Of a stretch of 7,904 bases of DNA, positions 1-7,904 are shown piece by piece. The stretch comes from a bacterium (GTDB taxonomy: Bacteria; JAJVIF01; JAGGVT01): NCBI GenBank assembly GCA_021157815.1, contig JAGGVT010000188.1:1-7904 (forward strand). Reading direction: 5' to 3'. The position numbers were made by a program, and so were the translations under genes. The notes below the pieces were generated by a model. It saw nothing but the letters and a program-made list of their open reading frames with translations. It searched no databases and had not been told where the DNA came from. Numbering within the stretch: the first letter of the stretch is position 1; the number at the start of each line of letters is the position of its first letter.

Positions 1-188
1 GTTAGTAGGTTAGTAAGTTAGTAGGTTAGTAAGTTAGTAGGTTAGTAAGTTAGTAGGTTAGTAAGTTAGTAGGTTAGTAAGTTAGTAGGTTAGTAAGTTA
101 GTAGGTTAGTAAGTTAGTAAGTTAGTAGGTTAGTAAGTTAGTAAGTTAGTAAGTTAGTAGGTTAGTAAGTTAGTAAGTTAGTAGGTTA
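1..188 (+). repeat. Tandem array of an 8-bp unit, GTTAGTAR (23.5 copies)
   Basis: The unit GTTAGTA(G/A) repeats head to tail 23 times from base 1 to 184, plus a half unit, and is cut by the window edge. Only the last base of the unit varies. It alternates G,A strictly over the first 14 units (a 16-bp super-period), then runs A,G,A,A,A,G,A,A,G. Because 8 is not a multiple of 3 and every unit carries TAG/TAA on the top strand and TAA on the bottom strand, all six frames are closed, so the array cannot code. Seven diverged copies in the opposite orientation lie at 523-578. The function is unknown. The clean repeats suggest slippage or unequal exchange. No spacers are present, so it is not a CRISPR array. 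Confidence 0.97.
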
Positions 189-191
189 AAT

Positions 192-421
192 AATAGCAGA
201 GGGTTTAAGAGCATCTCGGGAAAGGCATGTCGATTCTTAAACATACCATTTTCCTAATAACTCTCGGGTGCCGCCCACACATCACGTCTTTTTGTGATTT
301 GTGGGTGAAATGCATAACTTCGCAACATGTCACCCATAAAGACGAGACGGCTGTATGAGCACCCGACGTTATAAAATAGGTTTGGCGCCTTTCTCGACAA
401 TCTCTTAAACCCTCTGATATT
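192..421 (+). other. Long imperfect palindrome; candidate structured RNA or palindromic mobile element
   Basis: The two halves pair as follows: 192-195 with 418-421; 197-211 with 402-416 (15 bp perfect); 216-226 with 387-397 (11 bp including one G-T); 257-261 with 368-372; 264-271 with 359-366 (8 bp perfect). The apical part holds a strong hairpin, 274-285 with 294-305 (11 pairs, one mismatch, 8-nt loop). An exclusive alternative pairs 303-308 with 330-335 and 285-291 with 338-344. The G219/T394 pair is G-U only if the + strand is transcribed; on the - strand it would be C-A, which weakly favours a + strand RNA. An 80-codon open frame on the minus strand (447 to 205, GTG start) matches nothing I recognise and is probably a by-product of the palindrome. 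The element could be a MITE-like sequence, a structured ncRNA or a replication/recombination structure; I cannot separate these. Confidence 0.75.
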
Positions 422-458
422 TTTTCCAATTTTTTAAAGAGATTCACTTTTACAGACG

Positions 459-474
459 GGGTGTTGATGCACCC
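459..474 (+). other. Small hairpin, GGGTG / CACCC
   Basis: Bases 459-463 pair with 470-474, and T464-G469 can add a G-U pair, leaving a 4-base loop. The hairpin repeats the GGGTGC/GCACCC theme found in the neighbouring palindrome (266-271 and 359-364) and at 488-493. The wobble again favours a + strand RNA. Confidence 0.45.
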
Positions 475-483
475 AACTTTCCG

Positions 484-520
484 GCAAGGGTGCCGAATCT
501 CCCGGCTGATGCTTTTTTTT
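484..520 (+). terminator. Possible rho-independent terminator, + strand
   Basis: GCCG (492-495) pairs with CGGC (503-506) and GCA (484-486) with TGC (510-512), directly followed by eight T (513-520). An alternative hairpin pairs 482-486 with 491-495 (CGGCA/TGCCG). The stem is short and interrupted, so its strength is doubtful. Its direction is wrong for purH, which arrives on the minus strand. If real, it would end a + strand transcript of the palindromic element at 192-421. Confidence 0.4.
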
Positions 521-522
521 AC

Positions 523-578
523 CTTCTAACCTGCTAACCTTCTAACCTGCTAACCTGCTAACTTACTAACTTACTAAC
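523..578 (-). repeat. Inverted, diverged copy of the 8-bp array (7 units)
   Basis: Read on the minus strand from 578, the units are GTTAGTAA twice, GTTAGCAG twice, GTTAGAAG, GTTAGCAG and GTTAGAAG, with partial units at both edges (521-522 and 579). The core GTTAG-A- is constant while positions 6 and 8 vary. The orientation is opposite to the array at 1-188, so the two arrays bracket the palindromic element as a large inverted repeat. The array starts 6 bp past the purH stop codon. Confidence 0.93.
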
Positions 579-584
579 CGTTTT

Positions 585-2141
585 CTAATGCCTGAAGTGA
601 CGATTTCCAGTAAACACCATCGCAATTCCCAACTCATCGCATTTTGTTATTACGTGCTTGTCGCGGATTGAACCGCCCGGTTGGATTATCGCTGTGATTC
701 CCGCTTGATGCGCTATCTCGACATTATCCTCAAACGGAAGGAAAGCGTCCGATGCCGCTACCGAGCCTTGCACATTATCGCCGGCTTTTTCAATTGCGAT
801 TTGGAAACTGTCGATACGGCTCATCTGTCCGGCGCCTGTTCCGATTGTCCTGTGGTCTTTCGCAATAAGAATAGCGTTGGATTTGACATGCTTCACGACT
901 CGCCATGCCAGCCATAAATCGCGGGTTTCATTCTCGGATGGTTCACGTTTTGTAACAATCTGCCACTGGTCAACCGGAGTGAAAAGTTCATCCCATTCCT
1001 GCATAAGAATTCCGCTTCGCAGCACTTTTATTTCCTTTGGCGGCAGGTCGGCATCGCGCCAACCCTTTGCGAGTTTCATTATAATGCGGCTTTTTTTCTT
1101 CGAGAGGAGTTTTAGTGCGTCCTCATCATAGTCATCCGCCATTATTATATGGAACATGACTTCCTTGATTGTCTGCGCGAGCTCGATATTCACTTTGCCA
1201 TTAATTCCGATGATACCCCCGAATGCGCTCATTTCATCGACTCCGCGAGCGTGTTTGAAAGCGTCAAGTTCGTTGTCCGCTCTCGCCGCTCCGATTGGAT
1301 TCGAGTGTTTGACAACAACAGCGAACGGATTGCCAGCCTCGAATTCACGCATGATATTCAACGCGCCGTTAGCATCAAGATAATTGCAATATCCAATCTC
1401 CGAGCCACAGAGTATTTTGGCATAATCGGGGAACAGTTGCTTTTTATCGAGGCGCCTGTATAAATTCCCGCCCTGATGCGGATTTTCACCATACTTTAAT
1501 GTTTCAACGCGCTCGAATCCCACTAGGAATTCATCATCCTCGTACGGATTATGGTTAAGCGACTGGTTGAAATAATCATAGATGCAGAAATCATACAGAG
1601 CGACTTTTCTGAAAACTTTCGCTGCGAGGTTACGCCTGGTTGTATTGCTTACTTTTCCGCCAAGCTCTGACAGTTCCTTTATTACAGGGTCATAATCGGA
1701 TGGGTCGCAAAGAACAATGACTCTGCCGTGATTTTTGGCTGCCGCGCGAACGAGTGTTGGTCCGCCGATATCAATCATCTCAATAAGTTCATCATCGGAA
1801 GCGCCTTCTTCTTTACGGGCGTCCCGGAAAGGATAGAGATTACATACGACAATATCAATGGACGGAATATGCAGCGATGCCATCTCCTCATAATGTGCCG
1901 GATTATCCTTATGGAGAATGCCAGCGTGAATTTTCGGATGAAGCGTTTTTACCCGCCCCTCGAACAGTTCAGGAAAATCCGTGTATTCGGAAACCTCCAT
2001 GGAATCAATTCCGCCTTCCTGCAGGGCTTTGTGGGTTGTTCCGGTCGCGACGATTCCAAAATCGAGCTGTTCCAGATGGCGCGCGAAATCAACAATTCCG
2101 GTTTTGTCATAAACGCTTATTAACGCAAATCTTGATGCCAT
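585..2141 (-). CDS. purH: Bifunctional AICAR transformylase / IMP cyclohydrolase
   Basis: This enzyme catalyses the last two steps of de novo purine synthesis in the cytoplasm: formyl transfer from 10-formyl-THF to AICAR, then closure of FAICAR to IMP. The 518-residue length is normal for the family. The N-terminal MGS-like cyclohydrolase domain (about 1-200) shows SVYDKTG (9-15), ATGTT (32-36), GRVKTLHPKIHAG (62-74), NLYPF (101-105) and IDIGGPTLVRAAAKN (123-137). The transformylase part shows KYGENPHQ (216-223), the catalytic Lys-His pair K278-H279 in VVKHSNPIGAA, SNAI (421-424), GAGQMSR (436-442), ASDAFLPF (463-470) and the terminal GNRHFRH. The family's frequent Cys in 'KHxNPCG' is Ile here, while K-H is kept. 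The ATG at 2139-2141 follows a strong GGAGG (2148-2152) by 6 bases. It is the second gene of an operon, 21 bp after the nucleotidyltransferase stop. No terminator is visible before the downstream repeat array. Confidence 0.97.
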   Translation of the reverse strand: MASRFALISVYDKTGIVDFARHLEQLDFGIVATGTTHKALQEGGIDSMEVSEYTDFPELFEGRVKTLHPKIHAGILHKDNPAHYEEMASLHIPSIDIVVCNLYPFRDARKEEGASDDELIEMIDIGGPTLVRAAAKNHGRVIVLCDPSDYDPVIKELSELGGKVSNTTRRNLAAKVFRKVALYDFCIYDYFNQSLNHNPYEDDEFLVGFERVETLKYGENPHQGGNLYRRLDKKQLFPDYAKILCGSEIGYCNYLDANGALNIMREFEAGNPFAVVVKHSNPIGAARADNELDAFKHARGVDEMSAFGGIIGINGKVNIELAQTIKEVMFHIIMADDYDEDALKLLSKKKSRIIMKLAKGWRDADLPPKEIKVLRSGILMQEWDELFTPVDQWQIVTKREPSENETRDLWLAWRVVKHVKSNAILIAKDHRTIGTGAGQMSRIDSFQIAIEKAGDNVQGSVAASDAFLPFEDNVEIAHQAGITAIIQPGGSIRDKHVITKCDELGIAMVFTGNRHFRH

Positions 2142-4557: not shown

Positions 4558-4594
4558 GCACAATAACATCCCCAAAATCCGCGATTGATTTTGA

Positions 4595-4669
4595 TGTCAT
4601 TCCGGGCTTGACCCGGAATCCATCTAATGACCGAAAAAGCATGGATTCTGAATCAAGTTCAGAATGACA
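4595..4669. repeat. Interspersed palindromic repeat: two hairpin arms in inverted orientation
   Basis: A 29-bp arm at 4595-4623 is matched by its inverted copy at 4641-4669, identical at 23 of 29 positions, with a 17-bp spacer. Each arm is itself a perfect 8-bp hairpin with a 5-base loop: ATTCCGGG/CCCGGAAT on the left and ATTCTGAA/TTCAGAAT on the right. The core TGTCATTCCGGG...CCCGGAATCCA resembles intergenic palindromes seen in many bacterial genomes. It sits in the 210-bp spacer between the tRNA unit and thyX. Whether it is a mobile relic, an mRNA stabiliser or a protein-binding site is unknown. Confidence 0.85.
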
Positions 4670-4722
4670 ATTGGATTTATGATAAAATGCCGTGGAAATT
4701 TATCAGCAATGAGGTATGAGCA

Positions 4723-5573: not shown

Positions 5574-6631
5574 CTACAAGCCATAGTACTTATCTAATTC
5601 TTTTAACTTACCTTTTGGTATTTTTTCCCTCATTTTTGGTAACCGAAGATGCGAACGATTTATACGTTGACGATGGCGTTTGTTATTTATACAACGCCAA
5701 GCTGGTTTGCCTCCCCATTCACCAAACTCAACATCACTCCCACAGTTAAAACATTTTATAATTCCATCTTTCAACAGTGGTTGATCAATACTTCGAGTAT
5801 AACAATCTTTCTGAATACATCGCCAGTAGAATGGTTCATTTTTACCTTCGCTTGCGACAACCTCTGAATTGCATATTGGACAGATAGGTGTTCCTTCGTT
5901 ATAACCTCCAATTAAGTCATCTAGTCTAAGGGTACCAGCGAAATCTTCTATGACTGTCTTATTTTTTCGACGTTCCATGATTTCACGTGTATTACTATAA
6001 CTAAGTGGATTAAGAGATCCAGACCATAGAATATCATTATCAATGAATATTAATTTTTCATGCATTCCTCTTTTATGAACAACGGTAATCCCCCAAATAT
6101 CAAAAGATGATTCAAATTTCTCATAATTATCTTGCTCGCGTTTCTTGCGTTCTGTTATGGGTTTAGTTATCACGTAGATTGATATTCCCCGCTCTCTCGC
6201 TGCACGGAGAGGTGTCTCGAGCATACCGAGTCTTGATTCTGAAATGAAAGCAGAATAAATGACAATTCGATGTTTTGCATCATTCAAATCTTTCACAAAC
6301 ATACCGTAGAAGGAATCTTGAGTAACCACAATTCGATCTGAGTGTGGTTCAGTTTCACCACCGTAGATTATCTTATGGGTTTTAGAAGCACGGGTAGCAA
6401 ATCCATATGGTAAAATATCTAATGGGTTTGCACATGGGTAATTCTCAAGAAGAAAGGGAATAAACTTTGCGCCTATGAAAGCTTTTTTTGCTTTCGCTTG
6501 AATAAATGAAAAATCCCCCACTATTATTAAACGATGACGCGCTCTAGTTAATGCAACATTTAACAATCGTATATACTGATCATCCCATTCTGGATTGAAA
6601 ATACCAGCACGCCAATGTGGTTCACCAATTA
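5574..6631 (-). pseudogene. 3' part of SF1 helicase - PLD nuclease - zinc ribbon protein (Mokosh type II-like), cut by an IS
   Basis: Only the C-terminal part remains in the window. Residues are numbered from a TTG inside the IS end (6642-6644); M1-Q-R-Y4 and the first base of codon 5 are IS-derived. RLLNVALTRARHRLIIVGD (26-44) is motif VI of a superfamily 1 (Dna2/Upf1, COG1112-like) helicase. Residues 105-226 form a phospholipase-D domain with the full HKD motif H195-x-K197-x4-D202-x6-G209-S-x-N212. Two zinc ribbons follow: C255/C258/C276/C281 and C298/C301/C318 with H324 as a likely fourth ligand. The tail is basic. Helicase plus PLD in one chain is the architecture of MkoC of type II Mokosh anti-phage defence, which is the best fit and an inference. 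All ATPase motifs I-V are absent, so this piece cannot be an active helicase. It is very A+T-rich (16 G+C in 60 bases at 6001-6060), suggesting transfer. Confidence 0.82.
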
Positions 6632-6646
6632 GGTACCGTTGCAAAA
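6632..6646 (+). repeat. Left terminal inverted repeat of the IS
   Basis: GGTACCGTTGCAAAA is the exact reverse complement of 7889-7903. The match stops after 15 bp. The outer six bases are a palindrome (GGTACC). Confidence 0.93.
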
Positions 6647-6659
6647 GTAACAGGAATAG

Positions 6660-6688
6660 TTGATTTAGGCGGGATATTGAAATATAAT
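6660..6688 (+). promoter_or_regulatory. Transposase promoter
   Basis: TTGATT (6660-6665) and a perfect TATAAT (6683-6688) are 17 bp apart, 40 bp before the transposase ATG. Spacing and boxes fit a sigma-70-type promoter inside the element. Confidence 0.7.
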
Positions 6689-6728
6689 CAGGTTTTACAG
6701 AACACTATCCACCCCACGGAGAGACAAG

Positions 6729-7742
6729 ATGTTCACAAAGCCTGATAAACAAATAAAGTTCGAGGATCAGATATACGAATTAATCACCGAGGACAATTTC
6801 CTCTGGCAGTTAAGAGAGGTAATAAACTGGGGATTTGTAAACAAACACTGCCGCCATGTATATTCTGACAAGGGACGTCCTGCATATCCGGCTGTGATGA
6901 TGTTCAGGCTTCTTTTGATACAGTTTCTGTACGACCTGTCAGACCGCCAGTTAGAGGAGGCGGTGCGTTACAGGATAGATTTCAGGTGGTTTGTTGGGAT
7001 AACCGGCACGGAGCCCGGTCCGGACCACACTGCGTACTGCCGGTTCAGGGATCGCCTCGGAATGGGGACAATTACACGCATGTGGAATGAGATTGTGGAA
7101 CAGGCATCATCAGCGGGATTGATAACGGATCGCTTGTCAGTCGTGGATTCCACGCATGTTAAGGCAAAGGTAAATGTATATCGGTGGAAGGATGATGATG
7201 AGAATCCAGGTGGAAAGCATGGCCCTGACCCGGATGCCCGGTTTGGTCGCAAGACAAAGAACAAAAAGTTTTTCGGCTATAAATGCTCGATTGGAGAGGA
7301 TGTAGATTCGGGATTAATAACGATGGTGGATGTCAGTCCGGGAAACGAGAGCGACATAATGCTGTTTGAGCCTGTGGCTGATCCCTGTGCTGATGCGGTT
7401 ACGGCGGACAAGGGTTATGACGCCCAAAGGAATTATGATTTGCTTCACGGGCGCGGTCAGGAGGCTGCTATTATTCCGAAGCATCTCAAGGGCAAAGATA
7501 AAGGGCATGTCGCAGCCAGATATCCTCAGGGTGGCGAGAAGGCGCGTTATTACAGGCGAAAGAAGAAACGTCCGATTGTGGAGGGCAAATTTAATGAGAT
7601 GAAGAATATTCATGGATTTATTCAGGCACGTTATTGCGGAATTGGCAAAGTAAGAATTCAGGCTTATTTAACGGCGATGGTTATCAACATGAAGCGCATG
7701 GTTACACTGCTTACGGGACGTCCCAGATGGGCAAGAGTGTGA
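6729..7742 (+). CDS. IS5-family DDE transposase
   Basis: The 337-residue protein moves the element by cut-and-paste-type DDE chemistry. The N-terminal region (about 45-125) is DUF772-like, with YPAVMMFRLLLIQFLYDLSD and PDHTAYCRFRDRL. The catalytic triad is visible: D140 in VVDSTH, D227 in TADKGYD, and E285 in RPIVEGKFNEMK, which matches the R(3)E(6)K signature of the IS4/IS5 group. The length and single open frame are normal, so no frameshift is needed for expression. The ATG at 6729 follows GGAGAG (6718-6723) by 5 bases. The subgroup within IS5 was not determined. The gene is transcribed against the interrupted helicase-PLD gene. Confidence 0.95.
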   Translation: MFTKPDKQIKFEDQIYELITEDNFLWQLREVINWGFVNKHCRHVYSDKGRPAYPAVMMFRLLLIQFLYDLSDRQLEEAVRYRIDFRWFVGITGTEPGPDHTAYCRFRDRLGMGTITRMWNEIVEQASSAGLITDRLSVVDSTHVKAKVNVYRWKDDDENPGGKHGPDPDARFGRKTKNKKFFGYKCSIGEDVDSGLITMVDVSPGNESDIMLFEPVADPCADAVTADKGYDAQRNYDLLHGRGQEAAIIPKHLKGKDKGHVAARYPQGGEKARYYRRKKKRPIVEGKFNEMKNIHGFIQARYCGIGKVRIQAYLTAMVINMKRMVTLLTGRPRWARV

Positions 7743-7750
7743 TTGTCCGT

Positions 7751-7785
7751 GGGCGTATTGTCTCCCGATTCCGGGATATGCGCCC
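7751..7785 (+). other. Hairpin after the transposase gene
   Basis: GGGCG (7751-7755) pairs with CGCCC (7781-7785), and TCCCG (7763-7767) with CGGGA (7772-7776) around a 4-base loop. It begins 8 bp past the stop codon. A-rich rather than T-rich sequence follows, so a standard terminator is doubtful. It may instead limit read-through or fold the IS transcript. Confidence 0.45.
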
Positions 7786-7888
7786 AAAACGGTAGATTTA
7801 AAGCGGAATACAACATAAACCACAGGTGAAATACGGCTTTTTATTGGGGACTTTTGTGAAAGGAGCATGAATGCTTGTTAAGTCAGGT

Positions 7889-7903
7889 TTTTGCAACGGT
7901 ACC
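7889..7903 (-). repeat. Right terminal inverted repeat of the IS
   Basis: TTTTGCAACGGTACC is the exact inverted copy of the left end. It lies one base from the window edge. Confidence 0.93.
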
Positions 7904-7904
7904 A

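Follow-up and report, generated by a model that had tools for sequence, protein, structure and literature searches.

Octamer tandem arrays in sense orientation behind stop codons: a possible 3'-end element of bacterial transcription units

Tandem arrays of the octamer GTTAG(C/T)A(A/G) form a genome-wide family in the bacterium analysed here, and they are strongly concentrated just behind stop codons, in the sense of the gene that ends there, at the ends of transcription units. We posit that the family may contribute to the structure of transcript 3' ends, a reading to which we assign a probability of roughly 0.4. The window, i.e., the whole stretch of 7,904 nt that was analysed, is one entire contig (G000:C155:1-7904) of a draft genome of 3.2 Mb in 221 contigs, and carries two such arrays facing each other next to purH (Table 1). 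The contig further encodes a nucleotidyl transferase, an Mrp/NUBPL-type ATPase, thyX, two tRNAs and one insertion sequence; an Rfam search over the window returned the two tRNAs and nothing further. The insertion sequence (6641-7904; DUF772/DDE transposase, ORF 6729-7742; ends GGTACCGTTGCAAAA...TTTTGCAACGGTACC) reaches the contig edge, and a PLD/AAA_12 gene (5574-6644) appears to be broken by it.

Table 1. Features at the left end of the window, with positions in the window and strand.
Feature	Position	Strand	Remarks
Octamer array, 23 units GTTAGTAG/GTTAGTAA plus partial unit	1-187	+	truncated by the contig edge (base 1)
Family A dispersed palindromic element	188-425	.	terminal inverted repeats CAGAGGGTTTAAGAG (197-211, 402-416); no recognised gene
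Family A central hairpin GGGTGCCGCCCACACATCACG...TGTGATTTGTGGG	266-306	+	23-nt centre with 65 copies in 1.71 Mb
Family F dispersed palindromic repeat, GCCGGGAGATTCGGCACCCTTGCCGG	481-506	-	21 copies in 1.71 Mb
Octamer array, 7 units, purH sense	521-579	-	
A-rich hexamer AAAACG, gap between purH stop and array	579-584	-	A/purine-rich stretch before arrays genome-wide
purH (AICARFT/IMPCHase bienzyme)	585-2141	-	stop codon TAG at 585-587; array begins 6 nt beyond

Arrays were called from four units upwards in a sample of 1.71 Mb of the genome, taken in stretches, which yielded 77 arrays, none of them overlapping a gene. Extrapolated from this sample, the whole genome would hold roughly 140. A tandem-repeat scan identified 8 bp as by far the most frequent period, with nearly all 8-bp arrays built of GTTAGYAR and other short tandem units occurring only once or twice each. 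When up to two mismatches are allowed, the 21-mer GTTAGNARGTTAGNARGTTAG has 944 matches on one strand of the genome and 1,154 on the other, 2,098 in total versus 2 for the reversed control, and the arrays are thus not due to chance.

The strongest feature of the family, its position on the sense strand at the stop codon, had escaped the original prediction. For 39 of the 77 arrays, the distance between the stop of a same-strand gene and the first unit is at most 20 nt, compared to 1.6% expected from random intergenic positions (P ~7e-49), and 2 of 77 start within this distance of the stop of an opposite-strand gene (expected 1.6%). On contigs chosen without regard to repeats, 22 of 50 arrays lie at a sense stop. 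The contact can be as close as overlap: 11 arrays show a gap of -5, in which the TAG of the first GTTAG is the stop codon itself. Among other dispersed repeats of the genome, stop adjacency was seen for none of 65 family A centres, 2 of 64 copies of family E and 19 of 91 copies of family B, the latter equally on both strands; the terminal sequence of family A is partly stop-adjacent (12 of 59). About half of the octamer arrays have no called sense stop next to them. Some of these lie directly behind a terminator or a tRNA, and some arrays away from stops may follow genes overlooked by the simple gene finder.

The neighbourhood of the arrays places them in relation to operons. A codirectional downstream gene at less than 50 nt was found for 1 of 43 arrays versus 191 of 760 ordinary gene pairs (25%), which argues that arrays sit at the ends of transcription units and not at junctions within operons. 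Terminator-like hairpins follow the array in 7 of 37 stop-adjacent cases and precede it in 0 of 39, and the arrays should therefore be transcribed. The location after an operon, which had been suggested for the window alone, is thus supported across the genome by both neighbour spacing and terminator counts. A role as back-up stop codon was considered and rejected on account of the strand bias, since antisense arrays, judged by their sequence, would close all frames as well.

We infer both that the arrays are transcribed and that they affect the mRNA 3' end, and propose the following course. Beginning at the stop or a few bases past it, in gene sense, an array would become part of the 3' untranslated region. 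The common repeat phase at both array ends would reflect spread from one founder, after which each array would gain or lose 8 or 16 bp at a time by local change. Roughly one array in three has an inverted copy downstream, usually around palindromic repeats, and could fold in the RNA into a stem with the palindrome inside. Since the other two thirds lack an inverted partner, the stem is not a general mechanism. Placed between the last ribosome and the end of the transcript, the array may act as a barrier that slows 3'-to-5' decay and limits read-through into the neighbour. In the window, the right array would be carried by purH and the left array by an unseen gene or transcription unit to the left of the contig edge; the core between them belongs to a palindromic repeat family that is independent of the arrays.

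The edges of the arrays follow a common pattern. Adenine occupies positions -3 to -6 before the array in 40-46 of 74 cases (about 54-62%) versus about 31% after ordinary stops. At the 3' side, the most frequent edge falls after GTT: in 42 of 74 arrays the match continues into one more unit for exactly three or four bases, which is what a GTT edge followed by a chance A in a third of cases would give. This fixed phase at both ends of independent loci argues that the arrays spread from one founder and did not originate independently many times. Two-unit variant patterns (4343..., 2121..., 3131...) are frequent within arrays, and we regard these 16-bp patterns as the mark of local duplication. 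Polarity of decay along the arrays is weak in this genome (degenerate units 81 of 356 vs. 50 of 356) and absent in other taxa.

A second assembly of the same species allowed array lengths to be compared. It is a contig from a viral collection (L187, IMGVR_UViG_3300016457_001200 in IMG/VR) that is 99-99.9% identical over 11.6 kb to a stretch of the bacterium (L237), which makes it either bacterial sequence wrongly entered as viral or a shared region. Relative to G000:C167 it shows 30 substitutions over 11.6 kb and only two internal indels, one of 120 bp (15 units) and one of 40 bp (5 units), each of them within an array, differences that may stem from assembly collapse. The array renewal postulated for the window is indirectly supported by these copy-number differences and by the local 16-bp patterns.

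Octamer arrays are not confined to this genome. When one genome per species was searched for runs of four units, at least 56 loci were found, with many Pseudoalteromonas species, Moorena, Bacteroidota, Proteiniphilum, Glaciecola, an Anaerolineales bacterium and others among the matches listed. Considering 63 arrays (the matches listed and those of three viral contigs), 27 lie no more than 20 nt from a sense stop and 6 no more than 20 nt from an antisense stop; with orthologous loci counted once, a manual count gives about 21 versus 6 (P ~0.006, among the matches listed). Most of the array-bearing foreign genomes hold few arrays and one Bacteroidota genome holds many short ones: Bacteroidota bacterium USDE_metabat.41 (G052), with dozens of dispersed short GTT(A/G)G(C/T)AA arrays, is a second octamer-rich genome. 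Three perfect units were found in 0 of 384 sampled genomes of other taxa. The host class is poorly sampled; octamer arrays were absent from the three further genomes of the class that were compared, which are distant from the host (PurH identity of 45-46% to the two with a full-length match). In Pseudoalteromonas, orthologous lipase genes were located in 42 of 80 genomes, and unit number varies between orthologous loci. Five Pseudoalteromonas loci (L141, L150, L154, L171 and L184) share about 150 bp downstream, with a different upstream flank in L141, and the array there may form one of the termini of a longer dispersed element. Array end phases and cores in other phyla look different from those of the host genome. 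The differing end phases make descent from one founder across phyla unlikely, with convergence or a common targeting process as the alternative, and together with the differing cores they weaken the case for one shared function.

The strongest rival, which we consider well possible, is a short tandem element without cellular function, selfish or neutral, that would insert at A-rich sites around stops and unit 3' ends, where harm is smallest, and then vary in length by replication slippage. The phase-locked ends and the A-rich hexamer indeed resemble an inserted unit with a target preference, the arrays are confined to non-coding DNA, their distribution among genomes is very uneven (0 of 384 in the sample above), and other repeat families crowd the identical intergenic regions. 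Tolerance, however, predicts spread over all intergenic DNA and on both strands, so that the clustering at stops and the 39:2 strand bias would require targeting, and no mobilising enzyme was identified; retro-insertion was discarded as no reverse transcriptase was found in the genome. The identical placement in unrelated phyla likewise speaks against a neutral repeat. Because the rule of stop codon and strand recurs across phyla, we hold a functional element of the 3' UTR to be slightly more probable than a neutral repeat with an insertion preference, although the evidence does not decide between the two. Binding of Hfq, prompted by two ARN triplets in the unit (AGY ARG UU), was also considered and set aside, as no Hfq was found in the genome, which is about 91% complete.

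Two further explanations were considered. It is conceivable, but rather unlikely in our view, that a previously undescribed process places or selects the octamer at stops, in sense, in several unrelated phyla, through a conserved factor that acts either on the 3' ends of genes or on transcripts during translation or termination, for example by targeted insertion, by templated addition at stops or as a 3'-UTR system that reads GTTAGNAR. We find it still more doubtful that the array serves as a binding platform for Rho or another protein: read from the other strand it is C-rich, G-poor and unstructured, as is a Rho entry site, and it might block antisense transcription that runs into the gene from its 3' side. 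Unit composition and the strict sense orientation at gene ends would suit such an antisense-side signal; yet the A/G variation at position 8 alters a base behind the antisense C-richness, and closeness to the stop codon is not something that it requires.

Returning to the window, the inverted pair of 8-bp arrays that had been described there was recovered. GTTAGTAR is repeated 23.5 times at 1-188 and the same octamer 7.4 times on the opposite strand at 521-579, and the inverted arms 128-193 and 514-579 are 85% complementary across 66 nt. Since the left array starts at contig base 1, neither its actual length nor the gene on its left is in view. It mixes GTTAGTAG and GTTAGTAA, strictly alternating at first, in a homogeneous 16-bp (two-unit) pattern. 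Read in purH sense, the right array runs TAG, AAAACG, GTTAGTAA GTTAGTAA GTTAGCAG GTTAGCAG GTTAGAAG GTTAGCAG GTTAGAAG, that is, five canonical units and two GTTAGAAG. As GTTAGCAG is the most frequent unit genome-wide, this array is not merely decayed, and the contrast between a young left and a decaying right array was overstated.

The segment between the arrays had been taken for one non-coding palindrome. It contains no recognised gene, but the palindrome extends only over 188-425, where the arms 188-226 and 387-425 are 85% complementary, and is followed by a separate sequence (426-520) that includes family F. The palindrome is a copy of family A, a repeat of roughly 230 bp whose centre lies inside an ORF in 1 of 65 copies within the 1.71 Mb; the other intergenic families count 91 (B), 23 (C), 29 (D), 64 (E) and 21 (F) copies there. 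One of the family E copies lies in the window itself, where the dispersed repeat TCATTCCGGGCTTGACCCGGAATCCAT...GATTCTGAATCAAGTTCAGAATGACA at 4587-4670 has family E as its core. Between 18 and 29% of the copies of families A, B, C, D and F lie within 350 nt of an array, versus 5% of intergenic DNA, and for family E only 3 of 64 copies do. The repeat families and the arrays thus occupy common long intergenic regions. Only 12 of the 65 family A centres are that close to an array, which indicates that arrays and core are separate families sharing one niche.

Family A itself, with many copies, terminal inverted repeats and no gene, is MITE- or REP-like. The core resembles REP/BIME sequences with HUH (Y1) transposases and MITEs in being a multicopy, geneless, extragenic inverted repeat, a likeness that holds for the core and not for the arrays, and it may differ from them in two respects: no full-length, autonomous parent with the same ends as family A was seen, and in six complete copies, whose flanks are partly palindromic themselves, no clear and consistent direct target duplication was apparent. 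The genome carries nine Y1_Tnp (Y1/HUH transposase) genes, and one of four inspected, at L212:16500-17200, has inverted family A centres on both sides. This enzyme is a possible mobiliser of family A in a REP-like system, which we note as a lead. Outside the conserved ends of family A, the bases vary between copies (L080:667-914, L204:18086-18332 and others) and are complementary within each, e.g., AAAGAATAG...CTATTCTTT, a pattern suggestive of either a maintained stem or a palindromic target. Scans of viral contigs for the core and for hairpin B returned the same-species contig or no match.

Facing pairs recur in the genome, and the inverted pair of the window is therefore a recurrent structure. 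The recurrence that had been proposed as a check was found in part, in that several loci carry inverted arrays: 10 of 14 pairs of neighbouring arrays less than 700 bp apart in the 1.71 Mb face each other (+ then -), the others being two ++, one -+ and one -- (P ~3e-4). Within 500 nt downstream, opposite-strand units accompany 22 of 68 arrays and same-strand units 4 of 68, versus 0 of 2,938 background windows; upstream, opposite-strand units accompany 2 of 68. Folding of 1-584 in purH sense predicts that both arrays pair and form one long stem around the palindrome (z = -12.7). Convergent genes that each contribute one array were considered as a general origin of facing pairs and dismissed, as only three or four of the ten pairs fit.

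A foldback-like composite element, in which two inverted arrays and a palindromic core move together, had been among the original explanations of the window, and the over-representation of facing pairs (10 of 14 close pairs) agrees with it. Foldback transposons such as the Drosophila FB elements are inverted repeats of tandem subrepeats, and the window resembles them in its inverted arms of short tandem units around a core; the octamer arrays differ in that their cores vary by locus, their arms are mostly single and there is no sign of joint movement. The cores of the ten pairs are not alike (A+F in the window, B, C+B, D, F+A+B, or none of the tested families), most arrays have no partner, and 53 of 65 family A centres have no array within 350 nt, all of which makes a single mobile unit improbable. 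The window is rather a stack of several repeat families at a transcription-unit end. An assembly artefact at the contig edge, suggested by the start of the left array at base 1, can be dismissed almost entirely, as most of the 77 sampled arrays lie inside contigs, only 7 of 247 contig ends examined have an array within 150 nt, and the separately assembled same-species contig has the same arrays in the same positions, even if short-read array lengths may err.

Short tandem repeat arrays that are over-represented in some genomes are known, among them the STRR heptamers of Cyanobacteria. Tandem arrays with units of 5-11 nt that are over-represented in some genomes have been described as LSSR (Mrazek et al., 2007, as cited in PMC4679880). 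The octamer arrays, with a unit within 1-11 nt and lengths beyond chance, resemble both and add a position rule at the stop codon. Their nearest described case is the heptamer TAACTGA, which forms direct repeats in marine Beggiatoaceae, Cyanobacteria and Bacteroidetes (MacGregor, 2015, PMC4679880). In both, one short unit that contains stops in all three forward frames occurs in many intergenic arrays per genome and in unrelated phyla, and strains differ by whole units. TAACTGA, however, has 7 nt and 2-6 copies in its type genome and lies just before start codons, whereas GTTAGYAR has 8 nt and forms long arrays just after stop codons, in sense and with facing inverted partners; accordingly, a codirectional gene follows within 50 nt in 1 of 43 cases and a sense stop precedes within 20 nt in 39 of 77. 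A literature search for the octamer and related descriptions, covering few subscription papers, returned nothing on this family. To our knowledge, no single octamer family with a position rule at the stop codon has been known.

Tandem repeats in bacteria are usually treated as phase-variation switches within or before genes. At about half of its sites, and in other phyla as well, the octamer family is tied to the other end of the gene, namely the stop codon, with a single orientation. The arrays, whose lengths differ between the two assemblies of the species, might also be used as strain markers. The placement raises the question of whether the array acts in the mRNA 3' end or whether an enzyme or repair process inserts it at stops, and either answer would be new.
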